Assembly (NCBI GenBank): GCA_902587615.1
Contig: CACILY010000009.1
Span: forward strand, 1-37,283
Direction of reading: 5' to 3'
Source: an uncultured Prochlorococcus sp.
Lineage (GTDB): Bacteria > Cyanobacteriota > Cyanobacteriia > PCC-6307 > Cyanobiaceae
DNA: 37,283 bases
Every line of letters begins with the position of its first letter. Position 1 is the stretch's first letter. Shown piece after piece: positions 3,023 to 23,996 of this stretch. Below the pieces are notes generated by a model. The model saw only the letters and a list, made by a program, of their open reading frames with translations, ran no database searches and had not been told where the DNA came from. The translations under genes and the position numbers were made by a program.

Positions 3023-4063
3023 TCAACTTTTATTCTGAAGAGAACTCAATACACTCTTAAAATCAAAACCCATTGAACGTAAAGCATGCCAAAGATGTCC
3101 TTGAATAAAGAAGAATCCAAAATAGTAATGAACATTAGTCAAGGCAGCTCTCGTACTATGGCCAAAGAAAGAGTTGCTGTCAGAGAAATCTCCTGTATCG
3201 ACCCAATATGGAGCGATCGTAAATTTCTGAGCCAGAGGTTCTCCATAAAATTCTGTTGGATAAACTGATGTATTTGAAGCGCACCAAAAAGCCGCAACAA
3301 TCGCCATCCAACCTATTCCTGCAAGAGACCAAGACAAAACAGCCTCAGCAGAAAGTAATCCTGCACCTTTGTATTTAGTGTAAATACCTGTTTTTTGAGC
3401 AATATGAAGTGCTCCACCACTAATCAACAAAAAAGCAAGAAAGGCATGCCCACCCATCACGTCTTCCAAATTACTTATAGATAAGAAGTCAAATTGATGA
3501 TTCCAAATGGCATTCAAATTTAAGTTGTATTCAACTTGGCGAACTACCCCTTGAGAAGCATCATAAATACCATGAATTCTTGCCCATTCAACAAACCATA
3601 TGTTTGCAACACCTAAAAAGATCAAATGATGTCCAAGGATAAAAGTCAGATTTTTAGGATTATCCCACTCCAATTTGAACTTCCTTGCTTGCTTAACTTC
3701 ACTTTCTTGCATATCACCTTCAAAATAAAGGGAATGCAAAAGTCCACCAGCCCCATAAACCATAGAAGCTACAAGATGGACCACTGCTATTGAGACAACA
3801 TTTGCACCAGTCCAAACAGAACCAGCCTCATCAAAGCCAATTCCCATAGATGCTAAATGAGCCAAAAATATTGAGCTCTGATGTCCCATTGACACTGAGG
3901 GATCAAAACGCGCCAGCTCCCAAAGTGTTGCAGCACCAGCTGCAAAAGCCATTAAGCCTGTATGAGCAGCGTGAGCGGCAATAAATTTGCCTGAGCGATT
4001 AGTAACTCCTGCATTGCCTGCCCACCACCCATAGGTGACGGCCGGGTTTCCATATGTCTGCAT
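3023..4063 (-). CDS. pcb: Pcb chlorophyll a/b-binding light-harvesting protein, 346 aa
   Basis: Pcb proteins are six-helix thylakoid antenna proteins of the IsiA/CP43 family. They bind divinyl chlorophylls and pass energy to photosystem I or II. The N-terminus NPAVTYGWWAGNAGVTNRSG and the AAHAAHTGLMAF, GHHLIFLG, HQFDFLSI and VHYYFGFFFIQGHLWHALR segments are diagnostic, with conserved His ligands in successive helices. At 346 residues it lacks the large lumenal loop of CP43, as expected for Pcb. It is clearly paralogous to the gene at 8326-9402 but has diverged: its loop around residue 215 is shorter (KTGIYTKYKGA, without the GSGLLGE insert) and its C-terminus is shorter. Which Pcb letter applies, and which photosystem it serves, cannot be read from the sequence. 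Confidence 0.95.
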   Translation of the reverse strand: MQTYGNPAVTYGWWAGNAGVTNRSGKFIAAHAAHTGLMAFAAGAATLWELARFDPSVSMGHQSSIFLAHLASMGIGFDEAGSVWTGANVVSIAVVHLVASMVYGAGGLLHSLYFEGDMQESEVKQARKFKLEWDNPKNLTFILGHHLIFLGVANIWFVEWARIHGIYDASQGVVRQVEYNLNLNAIWNHQFDFLSISNLEDVMGGHAFLAFLLISGGALHIAQKTGIYTKYKGAGLLSAEAVLSWSLAGIGWMAIVAAFWCASNTSVYPTEFYGEPLAQKFTIAPYWVDTGDFSDSNSFFGHSTRAALTNVHYYFGFFFIQGHLWHALRSMGFDFKSVLSSLQNKS

Positions 4064-8325: not shown

Positions 8326-9402
8326 CTAGCCTTCAAGAGTAACTCTTGTGTTATCTAAATTGCTAATTGCTCTAGTAATACTCTTAAAATCGAAGCCTAA
8401 AGCTCTAATCGCATGCCATAAATGACCTTGGATAAAGAAGAATCCAAAGTAATAATGAACATTGGTTAAAGCAGCACGAGTTGTATGTCCCAAGAAAGAT
8501 GTGCAGTCTGAGACGTCACCTGTATCCACCCAATAAGGGGAAATTCCAAACTTCAATGCGAGTGGCTCTCCATACCAAGCTTCTGGATAAACAGTTGTAT
8601 TTGAAGCACACCAAAAAGCTGCCACAATAGCCATCCAGCCAATCCCTGCTAGAGAGAAAGAAAGAATACCTTCTGCAGACAATACTTTTGAACCTTTAAA
8701 AGTGGTGTATTCACCAAGCAAACCAGAACCCATTTTTGTTGCAATGTGGTGAGCTCCACCGGCAATCTGGGCAAATGCCAAGAATGCATGACCGCCCATC
8801 ACATCTTCAAGGCTATCGATTGCAAGAAAATCAAACTGGTGGTTCCAGATTGCACCTAAATTCAAGTTGTATTCAACTTGACGAACAGCTTCTATGGCTG
8901 GGTCATAAATTCCATGAATTCTGGCCCATTCAACAAACCAAATGTTTGCTATACCAAAAAATAGTAAGTGGTGACCAAGAATAAAAGTTTGGTTGTCAGG
9001 ATTGTTCCACTCTAATTTGAACTTTTTAGTTGTAGGAACAGGACCATCAGCAAGATCGCCATCAAATAGCAAGGAATGAGCTAATGCTCCTCCCGCATAA
9101 ACCATTGAAGCAATCAAATGCACTACTGCGACTGAAATTACATTTTCTCCAGTCCATGCACCAGCCTGATCGAAGCCTACTCCGATAGAAGCTAAATGAG
9201 CTAGAAAAATAGAACTTTGATGACCCATTGCGATGGATGGATCAAAGCGTGTCATCTCCCAAATGGTGCTTGCACCGCAAGCAAAAGCAATCAAGCCAGT
9301 ATGCGCTGCATGAGCGGCAATGAACTTGCCAGCCCGATTAGTTACTCCAGCGTTACCAGCCCACCATCCATAGGTGATGTCTGGATTTCCGTAGGTTTGC
9401 AT
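8326..9402 (-). CDS. pcb: Pcb chlorophyll a/b-binding light-harvesting protein, 358 aa
   Basis: A second member of the six-helix Pcb antenna family, homologous over its whole length to the gene at 3023-4063. The start NPDITYGWWAGNAGVTNRAG, the GHHLLFFGIANIWFVEWARI segment, WNHQFDFLAI and VHYYFGFFFIQGHLWHAIR are all present, with the helix His residues conserved. Compared with its neighbour it carries a longer loop around residue 222 (MGSGLLGEYTTFKGS) and a 12-residue longer C-terminus. It is followed by a good terminator and so is its own transcription unit. The upstream 430 bp probably hold its promoter. Which photosystem it serves is not visible. Confidence 0.96.
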   Translation of the reverse strand: MQTYGNPDITYGWWAGNAGVTNRAGKFIAAHAAHTGLIAFACGASTIWEMTRFDPSIAMGHQSSIFLAHLASIGVGFDQAGAWTGENVISVAVVHLIASMVYAGGALAHSLLFDGDLADGPVPTTKKFKLEWNNPDNQTFILGHHLLFFGIANIWFVEWARIHGIYDPAIEAVRQVEYNLNLGAIWNHQFDFLAIDSLEDVMGGHAFLAFAQIAGGAHHIATKMGSGLLGEYTTFKGSKVLSAEGILSFSLAGIGWMAIVAAFWCASNTTVYPEAWYGEPLALKFGISPYWVDTGDVSDCTSFLGHTTRAALTNVHYYFGFFFIQGHLWHAIRALGFDFKSITRAISNLDNTRVTLEG

Positions 9403-9831
9403 AAGTTAAAAGTACACTCGCATATAACCGTTATGAGATTACATTGATTTTGGGCTTGGGAAGCAAACAGTTCAGCAACCGTTAAATGCTGCTATATCCA
9501 ATGTTTTTACTTTTAGAGAAGTTCACAAGTATTTATGATTTGAATATCGCTCAAAATTGAGGCCTGATAATAGTCACAATAAGAGTTTCTAGGGATTGAT
9601 CAAAGTTGATCAAGTATTCTTAGCGACTGACCATTAAGCCTGTAGGACAAAATCAGAAGTGCATATCAAACGTAATTATTTCAAATTTCAGACAGTGAAA
9701 AAGCAATTCGAAATTATTTATTAGTCAAAGCTAATTTTTTTATTTAATATCTTCAGCCTTTTATCACACATCTTTGAACTGAAAAATCTATAAATAATTT
9801 TGCCCATTTATCTCTCTAGAAATAAATGTCT
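9403..9831. other. Intergenic region upstream of pcb, with tandem TTGATCAA palindromes
   Basis: There is no convincing coding sequence in these 429 bases. It should contain the minus-strand pcb promoter and the end of the transporter gene. The notable feature is TTGATCAA at 9596-9603 repeated at 9606-9613, two 8-bp palindromes one helical turn apart, about 200 bp before the pcb start. Confidence 0.5.
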
Positions 9832-11160
9832 CTAGCCAAACCATTGCTGGAAAAGATCTAGAGAACTAATTAATAAGCCAATTGCAATGACTGGAGGTGA
9901 CACCCATCGGAGCATAAACTTGAGATATCTACGAACACCCTCATTTGAATTTGCATCTGCTAAATCCTGATCGTATTTGCGGGGAACGACCCAACCAAGC
10001 AATATTGAGATAAGAAAGCCTCCTAAAATCAATAAGAAATTAAATATTGCATCCATATTTCCAAGAAAATCTAATGAAATCGCCGAGGGTATACCAATAA
10101 GAAATACTAGAAAGGTTGAAAAGAATACCGCCTTAGATCTTGTAAACCCAAGTTTGTCCATCATCGAAGAAACAGGAACTTCTAAAAGAGAAATAGAGGA
10201 AGTAATTGCAGCAATAAAAGCAAGTCCAAAGAAAATTGCGGCTAATAACCGACCAAATGTTCCTAAATTCGCAAATCCGGTAGGTAAAGCAATGAAGAGT
10301 GCGCCAACTGTTGATTCATTAACTACTTCTTTCAAACCAAAAGTCATGACAATTGGGAAAGTGATCATTCCGGCTAAAAGACCGACTGCTGTATCAAAAC
10401 TTGCAACTCCGAGGGCCTCCTTAGGCAAAGGATTACTTTTATCTAAATAAGATGAATAAGCAACCATAATCCCAATTCCTAAACTCAAAGAAAAGAATGC
10501 TTGAGTGAAGGCATTGCGAATTGTAGTTTTATCAAGCAATTGAGATGGATCCCATCTCATCAAAAACGATGAATATCCTTCCCAAGCGCCCGAAAGAGTA
10601 GAGGCCCAAACAGCTAAGAATAAAAGTAAAATGAAGAGCGCAGGCATAGCCCAACTAGTCAATCGCTCTATACCACCTCTAACACCAGCTGCGACAACAC
10701 AAGCAGTAAGGATCAAGCTAAAAACCTGACCTATAAAGACACTCTTTCCACTACTAATTCGACCAAAAAATTCTCCAGCCTCAGAAATATCTCCAGGAAG
10801 TCCTACGAATAGCGCATGAAAAAAAGTATCAACAGTCCAACCCATTATCACTGCATAGAAGGAAAGAATCCCGCAAGACGCAATAGCAAAAAGCCAACCT
10901 AGTGGTTCCCATTTACCACCTGCGGCTTTTTCTGGTGCAGTGAAGGGACTACTTTTTGTACTTCGTCCAAGAACCATCTCCCCAACAAGTACAGGAAGAC
11001 AAACAACCAAGACAACTAATATATAGAGAAGTAAAAAAGCTAAGCCTCCTCCTTGCGATGATCTATATGCGAAGCCCCAAAGATTACCTAGTCCAACGGC
11101 ACTCCCTGCCGCTGCAAGTACAAAGCCCCATCCAGAACGCCATTGCTCCCTTTGCTCCAT
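9832..11160 (-). CDS. Sodium-dependent transporter, NSS/SNF family, 442 aa
   Basis: A polytopic inner-membrane symporter of the neurotransmitter:sodium symporter family, which takes up amino acids or related solutes with Na+ (LeuT fold). The first helix carries the family motif GSAVGLGNLWGFAYRSSQGG, the unwound substrate and Na+ site, followed by LPVLVGEMVLGR. The later TTIRNAFTQAFFSLSLGIGI matches the TM6 binding region and AAITSSISLLEVPVSSMMDK matches TM8. It has about 11 helices and the bacterial-type length of about 440. The start ATG precedes MEQREQWRSGWGF, a typical N-terminus. The substrate cannot be told from the sequence. Confidence 0.93.
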   Translation of the reverse strand: MEQREQWRSGWGFVLAAAGSAVGLGNLWGFAYRSSQGGGLAFLLLYILVVLVVCLPVLVGEMVLGRSTKSSPFTAPEKAAGGKWEPLGWLFAIASCGILSFYAVIMGWTVDTFFHALFVGLPGDISEAGEFFGRISSGKSVFIGQVFSLILTACVVAAGVRGGIERLTSWAMPALFILLLFLAVWASTLSGAWEGYSSFLMRWDPSQLLDKTTIRNAFTQAFFSLSLGIGIMVAYSSYLDKSNPLPKEALGVASFDTAVGLLAGMITFPIVMTFGLKEVVNESTVGALFIALPTGFANLGTFGRLLAAIFFGLAFIAAITSSISLLEVPVSSMMDKLGFTRSKAVFFSTFLVFLIGIPSAISLDFLGNMDAIFNFLLILGGFLISILLGWVVPRKYDQDLADANSNEGVRRYLKFMLRWVSPPVIAIGLLISSLDLFQQWFG

Positions 11161-11422
11161 CTAATTACCTCTGTGAATGAACTGATAATTAATAATTATG
11201 AAAAGGCTAAGAGAAAGAGGCAAAAAGATTTAGTTGCTGTAGGAATTCGGAACAAGAAATTACTCAACATTGTTCTAAAATGACTACTTGGTCATAGAAA
11301 CTAATGTCTAAAATAAATTTCAAAATGAATTTGAGTGCAAGAGGCAGGGAATTGAGTTTTCTATAAACTGAAAGAGAAAATCATTTATGGTATATGTACC
11401 TATCTAATCTATTGGCAGAAAA

Positions 11423-19705: not shown

Positions 19706-21010
19706 TCAAACACCTAGTCCAAAAAATGCATTAGCCACAAAAAGCAAGCTAAATCCACCTAAAAAAATCAATCCCATCCAACATAAAAATCTCATAAAAA
19801 GACCATATTGGTGTTTTGCAGGAACTAATGAACTGTTAATAGTATCCATTGCCATCCATGCAAACAAAGGGGCCGTAAGAAAACTACCGGTCATCGCAGC
19901 AAAAACAAAATCTTTAACACCGATACCTCCTGATCTAGCGATAAGAAGAGCAGCTAAGGCAACAAATACATGTACAACAATCCATTTTTGTAACAGACTT
20001 TGTTCTGAAGCTGAAGAGAAATTAATTTTCTCTCTTTTTTTTCTTAAAAGTACTTGAATGGCAGAAATACTTCTAGGGTAGGCATCTAAGCAAGTTAAAG
20101 TTGTACTAAACATTGCAGCAAAGGAAGCTGGAACAATAATCCATCTAGCCCAATTACCCATAGACTCTGTATAAATACGAATAAGGTTTTGAGCAAAAGA
20201 AACTCCACTTCCCGATAGCATTGCATCCCCACTTTCATACATAGTGAATGCACCAAGAGTTACAAAAAATATCGCCGTGATAACAGTAATTAAATACCCT
20301 AAATTGAAATCCATTTCAGATTCAGCAAGAGTTGGTATGTAATTATTGTTTTTGGAGCTAGAAAACATCCATAAAGATGGCCAAACACATAATTCGACAG
20401 GGCCAGGCATCCATCCCATTAAAGGGATCAAGAATGATAAATTAGAAAGCTTCCAGGGACTAGGATTAGAATCAATCCAACTAGAATATAATCTTTCTTC
20501 CGCTCCTCCATTAATCAATGAAAGTACTGCAAAAAAGGTTAGTAAGGTAAGTAAACTAACAAGAATTTTCGATATGCGGTCTAAGGCTTTGTATTGACCT
20601 ACTAGTAGGATTAGTCCACTAACTACTAAAACTCCAATAGATAAATCCATTGGAGGGTATCCAGAAAAAATAGGAATGTTGGTTAAAAGTAATCCTGATA
20701 CGAAGCTGACTGCTGCAATAGTAAAAGTACCAGTAATCAAGCTAACAATTAAATAAAGAGGCAAGTACAAATTGTTTCGAGCCTGAAAGCCCTCTAACAA
20801 AGAAATGCCTGTTGATGCTGTAAATCGCGTCCCTACTAAGAGAAATGGGTATTTCATAAGGTTAGTAAGCAAAATCAAGCCAACCAATGCAAATCCAAAC
20901 TTGGCTCCTGCGGTTGTTGACGACATCAAATGAGAGCCACCGATACAAGCACCTGCAAATAAAATTCCTGGTCCTATGGTTTTTCGAAAGCCTCGTATTG
21001 AGATCTTCAT
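19706..21010 (-). CDS. NRAMP-fold transporter lacking DPGN, 434 aa
   Basis: It has about 11 membrane helices with NRAMP-family layout: TIGPGILFAGACIGGSHLMS in helix 1, TAGAKFGFALVGLILLTNLM in helices 1-2, the VGTRFTASTGISLLEGF segment, and a final FAAMTGSFLTAPLFAWMAMD. The helix-1 DPGN motif that binds Mn/Fe in NRAMPs is replaced by the GGSH region, and the helix-6 MPH motif reads MYESGDAM. The substrate is therefore probably not the usual Mn2+ or Fe2+. I chose the ATG at 21010, which gives MKISIRGF; the frame also extends to a TTG at 21073 (455 aa), but without helical content or a clear Shine-Dalgarno. Confidence 0.8.
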   Translation of the reverse strand: MKISIRGFRKTIGPGILFAGACIGGSHLMSSTTAGAKFGFALVGLILLTNLMKYPFLLVGTRFTASTGISLLEGFQARNNLYLPLYLIVSLITGTFTIAAVSFVSGLLLTNIPIFSGYPPMDLSIGVLVVSGLILLVGQYKALDRISKILVSLLTLLTFFAVLSLINGGAEERLYSSWIDSNPSPWKLSNLSFLIPLMGWMPGPVELCVWPSLWMFSSSKNNNYIPTLAESEMDFNLGYLITVITAIFFVTLGAFTMYESGDAMLSGSGVSFAQNLIRIYTESMGNWARWIIVPASFAAMFSTTLTCLDAYPRSISAIQVLLRKKREKINFSSASEQSLLQKWIVVHVFVALAALLIARSGGIGVKDFVFAAMTGSFLTAPLFAWMAMDTINSSLVPAKHQYGLFMRFLCWMGLIFLGGFSLLFVANAFFGLGV

Positions 21011-21170
21011 CGTTATATAAGCGTTAAAAGCATATTGGTCGATAGAGTCTTCTTTGAATAACTCACATAACAAAATTAGATAATTAATATTAAAAGGGTA
21101 ATAAAAAGACAGTATTTACCTGGTGTAATTGTTGACTACTAAGATAATATTTAGTTAATGCTCTTGTTGT

Positions 21171-21623: not shown

Positions 21624-21809
21624 TTAATCATATCCTCCCCACTGACGTCCAATCTCAAAACCCCAAGATCTTGCTAGCTTTACTACTTCATCATGTGAAG
21701 TGCAAGATATTAAGAGCTCTTTACGCTTAGGGAAAGAATTTACAGATGCAAGTAATAAATTAAGTTGTTCTACCTTTTTTACGAATCCTAAGAAATCTTT
21801 CTCGGACAT
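21624..21809 (-). CDS. Nif11-like short protein, 61 aa
   Basis: It begins MSEKDFLGFVKKVEQLNLLL and later has SHDEVVKLARSWGFEIG. This is the Nif11 pattern: S-x-x-x-[LF]-x-x-F-x-x-K-V at the start and a D-E-V-x-x-[LI]-A-x-x-x-G-F-E-[IL] helix. Nif11 domains act as leader peptides of modified peptides (for example prochlorosins) or as stand-alone small proteins. Here the tail after the domain is only RQWGGYD, with no Cys and no GG-type cleavage site followed by a core. A stand-alone regulator or orphan is therefore more likely than a peptide precursor. No lanthipeptide synthetase is in the window. Confidence 0.7.
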   Translation of the reverse strand: MSEKDFLGFVKKVEQLNLLLASVNSFPKRKELLISCTSHDEVVKLARSWGFEIGRQWGGYD

Positions 21810-23081: not shown

Positions 23082-23306
23082 TTGAAAAGTTGTCTTTCAT
23101 TCTTTTATCTCCTGACTTCTTTGTTTTTAGCTGGGTGTTCAGTCAATCCAAGAGAAAATCCCACGCCTGCTCTTTTTGATAGCAAATTGGAAGCTGAAAA
23201 AGCAGCCAAAGATTTCAATTGCACTGGGGCCCATAAAATGGGCAATAAGTGGATGCCTTGCGAAAAGCATAGTGATTCAGATCATCACCACCACCACAAT
23301 CACTAG
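23082..23306 (+). CDS. DUF3721 lipoprotein with histidine-rich tail, 74 aa
   Basis: TTG start. The N-terminus KSCLSFFYLLTSLFLAGCS is a lipoprotein signal with lipobox L-A-G-C, so the mature protein starts at C19 and should be lipid-anchored. DUF3721 follows: KLEAEKAAKDFNCTGAHKMG then NKWMPC, the C-x-G-A/V-H-K-M-G-x-K-W-M-P-C signature. The C-terminus is HSDSDHHHHHNH, a likely metal-binding tail. It is 8 bp from the next gene, which carries a second DUF3721, so the two probably form an operon. DUF3721 is of unknown function; the Cys/His pattern suggests metal binding. Confidence 0.85.
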   Translation: MKSCLSFFYLLTSLFLAGCSVNPRENPTPALFDSKLEAEKAAKDFNCTGAHKMGNKWMPCEKHSDSDHHHHHNH

Positions 23307-23314
23307 ATTCAGTA

Positions 23315-23755
23315 ATGCATGTCAATCTAAAAGCTAGTGATCAAAACCAAGAACAAAACTCTTCTCATTGCGGCAGTAAGCCAAAAAAATTAGCCATAGG
23401 AATAGCTCCTCTTGGGTTGGTATCAATTGGGATTGTGCCTATGGGAATAGTAACTATTGGAATAGTTCCAATGGGTGTAGTCTCTATTGGAGTTGTTGCG
23501 ATGGGCGTAGTTAACGCTTCAATAGTTGGCATGGGAATATTCTCTGCAGGCATAACAACTATGGGCTTAAAAGTATGGAGTCCTGAAGCAATAGTTCCAC
23601 AAGAAAGGATAGATAAAACTTCTAACACTCAAGACAAAAACATTTACGCTTATTCCAGCAGGTCAAGAGCACAGGCAGAAGCTAAAAAGATTGGATGCTT
23701 AGGCGTTCATAAGATGGGAGACAAATGGATGCCATGTGCAATCCACGGTAGATAG
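23315..23755 (+). CDS. Glycine-pentapeptide-repeat protein fused to DUF3721, 146 aa
   Basis: After a polar 25-residue N-terminus comes a repeat with Gly exactly every fifth residue: 29, 34, 39, 44, 49, 54, 59, 64, 74, 79 and 84, with Ser at 69. The unit is G-[IV]-V-[PST]-[MI], and Met alternates with Ile/Ala to give a 10-residue super-period (Met at 43, 53, 63, 73, 83). The repeat is hydrophobic and could form a small beta-helix or a membrane-embedded segment. A linker leads to DUF3721 at about 115-143: RAQAEAKKIGCLGVHKMGDK then WMPCAIHGR. It shares DUF3721 with the lipoprotein 8 bp upstream. A shorter relative of the repeat follows at 23838. Function unknown. Confidence 0.8.
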   Translation: MHVNLKASDQNQEQNSSHCGSKPKKLAIGIAPLGLVSIGIVPMGIVTIGIVPMGVVSIGVVAMGVVNASIVGMGIFSAGITTMGLKVWSPEAIVPQERIDKTSNTQDKNIYAYSSRSRAQAEAKKIGCLGVHKMGDKWMPCAIHGR

Positions 23756-23837
23756 TGAATAATCTATAGCTTTATCTAAATAAATTGCAAACAACCAAAT
23801 CCATACAAAGCAATAAACTTTTGAGAGTATTTCATAA

Positions 23838-23996
23838 TTGATTTCAACTGGGATAGATTCTCGAGAAAATATTTCTATTGGAGTTGCTTCTATGGGTGTT
23901 TTCACTGTCAGTGCTGTTGGAATGGGGTTAATAAATGCGTGCCTAATCAGTTCTCGCATAATTGTTTATGGTATAAAAATCATAGGGCTTAATTAA
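23838..23996 (+). CDS. Short glycine-pentapeptide-repeat protein, 52 aa, possibly a remnant
   Basis: From a TTG start the frame reads ISIGVASMGVFTVSAVGMGL, the same five-residue glycine repeat as in the gene just upstream: G at 15, 20 and 30 and Ser at 25, where the larger protein has Ser at 69 before G-M-G. It then continues into LINACLISSRIIVYGIKIIG and stops. It lacks DUF3721. It is either a small relative or the degraded copy of a duplicated repeat gene. The start codon is uncertain. Confidence 0.45.
   Translation: MISTGIDSRENISIGVASMGVFTVSAVGMGLINACLISSRIIVYGIKIIGLN

Follow-up and report, generated by a model that had tools for sequence, protein, structure and literature searches.

Two adjacent genes, one encoding a lipoprotein with the domain DUF3721 and a His-rich tail and the other a protein in which a glycine repeat is fused to a second DUF3721 domain, were shown to form a tightly spaced, conserved unit under purifying selection, and the key period of the repeat is ten residues, not five. 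Sequence and gene context point, with slightly better than even confidence, to the pair acting as a module that handles metal in the cell envelope, with copper, as Cu(I), the most likely metal. Cu(I) best fits the candidate ligands and the wider gene neighbourhoods; zinc fits the neighbourhoods within Cyanobiaceae.

Three ORFs on the plus strand, described in an earlier note on this DNA, are indeed present in the window, i.e. the whole stretch of 37,283 nucleotides that was analysed, which belongs to a contig of Prochlorococcus-like (Cyanobiaceae) type. The first (23082..23306, 74 aa, TTG start) encodes a protein ending in the His5 tail noted earlier (DHHHHHNH), with the lipobox Cys that follows the signal peptide of a bacterial lipoprotein (LFLAGC), and a lipobox-like motif was found in 55 of 71 relatives. 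The second (23315..23755, 146 aa, ATG start) encodes the fusion protein, consisting of an HCGSKPKK leader, a 12-unit glycine-pentapeptide repeat of GLTT type, a linker and the C-terminal DUF3721. The assignment of DUF3721 to both proteins was borne out by Pfam profile scores of 67.5 and 59.6 bits, respectively, against a cut-off of 27. An 87-codon antisense ORF (23365-23628, minus strand) mirrors the repeat as T-P-I pentapeptides and is explained by the codon pattern of the repeat. Elsewhere in the window are a gene for a Nif11-domain peptide (33.4 bits; 21624-21809, minus strand), approximately 1.3 kb upstream of the pair, and two ORFs at 3026-4063 and 8329-9402 (minus strand) that resemble Pcb/IsiA-type chlorophyll-binding proteins by N-terminal sequence (compare low-light Prochlorococcus).

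The proposal of a three-gene system held for the two intact genes only, the third ORF (23838..23996, plus strand, 52 aa) being a decayed copy in this genome. It was rejected as a functional gene on the basis of in-frame stops just upstream, a ten-residue deletion and the loss of conserved Gly, Cys and Met residues, and it scores 19.4 bits against the Pfam family GLTT (PF01744), just under the cut-off of 21. Intact repeat-only genes of 78-115 codons occur directly downstream of the fusion gene at ten Prochlorococcus loci, and the third ORF is best read, from its alignment with these intact copies, as a probable relic of such a repeat-only paralogue. The deletion relative to them spans precisely one ten-residue unit, which hints at a structural unit of that same length.

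The repeat region of the fusion (23390..23569) comprises approximately 60 uncharged residues with a GRAVY of 1.9. Glycine occupies 11 of the 12 expected places, as first noted, a count that 100,000 shuffles of the segment never attained. The implication that the repeat was undescribed did not survive, since the fusion repeat scores 63.7 bits against PF01744, while its stated dissimilarity to classical A(D/N)LXX pentapeptide repeats was upheld by a profile search (E up to 1) that returned no PF00805 match. The ten-residue alternation of Met and Ile was also confirmed, Met being conserved in all 45 aligned fusions at each of residues 43, 53, 63, 73 and 83, and the repeat unit can be written G-[IV]-x-[PSAG]-[M/H/C]-G-[IV]-[IV]-[ST]-[I].

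Across 38 diverse, non-redundant repeat proteins, all 192 internal residues of this ladder are Met (159), His (28) or Cys (5), whereas the alternate ladder consists of Ile, Ala, Val, Phe or Leu, with Met at merely 3 of 194 places; these counts are not numbers of independent events, as His clusters in one lineage set and Cys in one paralogue group, and a Fisher p computed from them is not a true probability, since the Met/His ladder itself served to set the register and the sequences are related by descent. The first ladder residue varies among H, L, R and T. In the repeat proteins of other cyanobacteria the ladder often starts with His residues and continues with Met (HHHMMMM). Met usually drifts to Leu or Ile, and the absence of these two residues from the ladder together with the presence of His and Cys suggests that the ladder residues may serve as metal ligands. 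The repeat stretch is under strong constraint, with a dN/dS of approximately 0.033 (approximate, as dS is near saturation).

The lipoprotein gene lies directly upstream of the fusion gene on the same strand in 69 of the 79 relative loci that carry the fusion, the two being a median of 16 nt apart, so the possibility raised in the earlier note, that the genes might never co-occur elsewhere, is not realised. Both genes are under purifying selection, with dN/dS of approximately 0.12 for the fusion and 0.18 for the lipoprotein, values that are approximate given dS near saturation. Among 292 genomes sampled across the phylum, DUF3721 was found in 36 Cyanobiaceae genomes and in no other cyanobacteria, and a match to the fusion was found in 104 of 121 Cyanobiaceae genomes; the unit is present in nearly all Prochlorococcus and marine Synechococcus. 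A search of phages for relatives gave no match, viral contigs contained no relative of the repeat and one short DUF3721-like match, and the plasmid search gave a single Nostoc match to the repeat. In one complete Prochlorococcus genome (G114, locus L192, 4986-5429) an in-frame TGA interrupts the fusion gene inside the repeat. In the literature searched, no paper naming DUF3721, GLTT, PF01744 or PF12518 was found, nor was any description of the pairing of DUF3721 with the repeat and its metal context.

The DUF3721 domains, at 23175..23273 in the lipoprotein and 23651..23746 in the fusion, belong to PF12518, a Pfam domain without an assigned function. In the motif C-x3-H-x-M...WMPC-x2-H, the Cys, His, Met, Trp, Met, Pro and Cys were retained in all 149 domains compared, and the final His in 147. 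AlphaFold models the domain of the fusion as a helix plus a beta-hairpin at a pLDDT of approximately 92-94. Three stand-alone exported DUF3721 proteins at other loci carry a divergent motif, VHENNGRWMPC...ERELH, without the HxMG part.

The fold of the repeat was predicted with far lower confidence. AlphaFold rendered the repeat as beta structure within the whole fusion (pLDDT approximately 50) and as helix when modelled alone (mean pLDDT 58). The earlier idea of a beta-helix is compatible with the five- and ten-residue periodicity, but the two runs contradict each other. The best Z in a VIA-align comparison with the PDB was an uninformative 4.2, and a PDB sequence search found no relative, its sole match being to PsbY at E 0.026. 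Residues spaced ten apart would not fall on a single face of an alpha-helix, but would on that of a solenoid whose turns comprise ten (or twenty) residues. The fusion lacks a signal peptide and has a KPKK flank and a hydrophobic stretch, features which suggest that it is membrane-associated, with its DUF3721 domain predicted to lie in the periplasm.

Within the window, no recognised copper or zinc gene was found near the pair, save for a membrane protein (19706-21073, minus strand) with a weak Nramp match of 28.4 bits, just under the cut-off of 29.8. Among relatives, approximately 27 of 80 Prochlorococcus loci have znuB, a Fur-family gene, znuC and znuA at a distance of a few kb from the pair. 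Of 27 one-contig Cyanobiaceae genomes, 10 have the fusion gene and znuA no more than 10 kb apart, against 0.3 expected, and these represent 5 of 15 genera. In MIT9313-like and marine Synechococcus genomes the pair instead adjoins a Fur-type regulator (four loci); a reading of this gene (33% identity) as Zur was set aside, as it looks more like Fur. A search upstream of the pair for a Zur box, using a generic consensus, found no site better than shuffles. In three MIT9313-like or marine Synechococcus loci (L224-L226, near 9700-11400), a separate DUF3721 gene adjoins a cytochrome c gene, and cytochrome c genes were likewise observed next to or near DUF3721 genes at two further Cyanobiaceae loci (L009, 5878; L179, 8927). 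Nine Prochlorococcus loci have a HupE/UreJ-type gene near the pair and no znuABC within the stretch read.

Outside Cyanobiaceae, many cyanobacteria encode a repeat protein that lacks DUF3721 and ends in a His/Met-rich tail, for example HHMPGMKMP or MDHSGMDHG, and here the repeat family is linked, in apparent operons, to known copper genes, which the window locus is not. Six genomes of one genus share the gene order cytochrome c–repeat–YcnI (PF07987), followed in three of them by a recognised CopC-CopD fusion, and at one locus (L154) the cytochrome c stop overlaps the repeat start. YcnI is reported to contain a copper-binding domain (PMC8424229). At three other loci, the genes downstream of the repeat gene on its strand encode a regulator of BlaI type and an M48/M56 protease that resemble PetR and PetP; PetRP controls the copper-dependent switch between plastocyanin and cytochrome c6 in Synechocystis (PMC7896320). 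A further three have petRP nearby and a PepSY_TM gene, co-directional with the repeat gene, immediately before it; two of these also have a cytochrome c gene nearby. At L253 a shortened repeat ORF lies ahead of the gene for a heavy-metal P-type ATPase that carries a CPC motif and whose N-terminus is rich in His. The majority of non-Cyanobiaceae loci have no recognised copper neighbour, and clustering of the neighbours at these loci yielded little besides copper genes. The linkage of the repeat to copper genes holds in several lineages and is not a universal rule.

Taken with the restriction of the ladder to Met, His and Cys and with the invariant Cys/His/Met set of DUF3721, these neighbourhoods (zur/znuABC and Fur genes in Cyanobiaceae; YcnI, CopCD, PetRP and cytochrome c elsewhere) give good support to the earlier suggestion of a small metal-handling envelope system. 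In the mechanism proposed, the His tail of the lipoprotein and the Cys/His/Met site of its DUF3721 would capture metal in the periplasm, and this DUF3721 would then hand the metal to the matching domain of the fusion, its docking or transfer partner. The repeat would form a narrow solenoid, or a stack associated with the membrane, in which the Met/His/Cys side chains are aligned, and the resulting ladder may bind, store or relay metal at the membrane. In other cyanobacteria, the His/Met-rich tail of the repeat protein itself could take the place of the fused DUF3721. A bolder form of this proposal, held tentatively and thought rather unlikely, is that the repeat is a new metal-binding fold, a narrow solenoid of ten residues per turn whose continuous Met/His/Cys ladder would act as a linear wire or storage rod for Cu(I), with DUF3721 domains coupled to it for metal exchange.

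The choice of copper is opposed by the strongest linkage within Cyanobiaceae, which is to zinc and Fur genes and not to petRP, YcnI or CopCD; Met is a poor zinc ligand. It is possible, though doubtful, that the metal in Cyanobiaceae is zinc, or several divalent metals, such that the C-H-C-H set of DUF3721 and the His tails buffer zinc beside ZnuABC and the repeat is a mere membrane anchor. The synteny with zur-znuABC, the abundance of His in the tails (median 7) and the C-x3-H...C-x2-H spacing in DUF3721 all agree with such a role, but a Met-dominated ladder that never contains Leu or Ile would be unexpected in an inert anchor or at a zinc site, and the relatives of the repeat outside Cyanobiaceae sit with copper genes. 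In addition, the pair is not among the strongly Zur-regulated genes of Synechococcus WH8102, where changes of more than fourfold in a zur mutant were restricted to SYNW0968-0973 and SYNW0359-0360 (PMC9337993), making strong Zur control of the pair unlikely in that strain, presuming that WH8102 carries the pair as its relatives do.

The ladder also argues against an unlikely alternative in which the repeat has a structural role, as a hydrophobic solenoid or an assembly bound to the membrane, Met simply packs, and the metal neighbours reflect genome organisation. The length of the very hydrophobic, uncharged stretch, the good packing of Met and the absence of metal neighbours at many loci are consistent with this, but internal ladder Met is replaced by His or Cys and never by Leu, Ile, Val or Phe, among which other sites vary freely, and the operon-like linkage to copper genes recurs in several families. 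Surface Met can scavenge oxidants, and the linkage to cytochrome c and PetRP genes could accordingly be taken to indicate an oxidant sink or redox element for electron transfer by cytochrome c6 or plastocyanin, or for its assembly. Such a role is considered very improbable, as the substitution of His for Met at three successive ladder positions, the His/Met tails and the CopCD/YcnI and P-type ATPase neighbours all point to metal ligands.

For marine cyanobacteria, copper and zinc are limiting or toxic, and few metal-handling proteins are known in these cells. If the envelope metal-handling reading is correct, this conserved two-gene unit would fill part of that gap, giving a function to two Pfam families and a new partner protein to the copper-sensing petRP operon. 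A metal-stacking solenoid, if real, would be shared by nearly all of the most abundant phototrophs in the ocean.

Compared with known systems, both intact proteins match PF12518 over its cut-off and the repeat matches PF01744 well over its own, but PF01744 is defined as a five-residue repeat without an assigned function, whereas the unit here has ten residues and a Met/His/Cys ladder. Classical pentapeptide-repeat proteins (PF00805), whose fold is a right-handed quadrilateral beta-helix, share the five-residue periodicity and differ in that the present repeat is uncharged, glycine-based and without the A(D/N)LXX signature. The YcnI/YcnJ (CopC-CopD) copper acquisition system has similar His-rich tails, and in one genus the repeat gene lies in the same apparent operon, but there is no sequence relation, the repeat and DUF3721 being separate families. 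By analogy, the use of Met and His side chains as soft-metal ligands recalls the Met-rich copper binders and Cu(I) transporters CusF, CTR1 and SilE, none of which, to our knowledge, has its ligands on a strict ten-residue ladder. The solenoid of the midge antifreeze protein has Gly at every fifth residue and a side-chain ladder at every tenth, as in the repeat here, an analogy only, since its ladder is of Tyr and the protein is disulfide-bonded and binds ice. The combination described here would be a new form of envelope metal-handling protein, and a new kind should the ladder turn out to be a solenoid that stacks metal.
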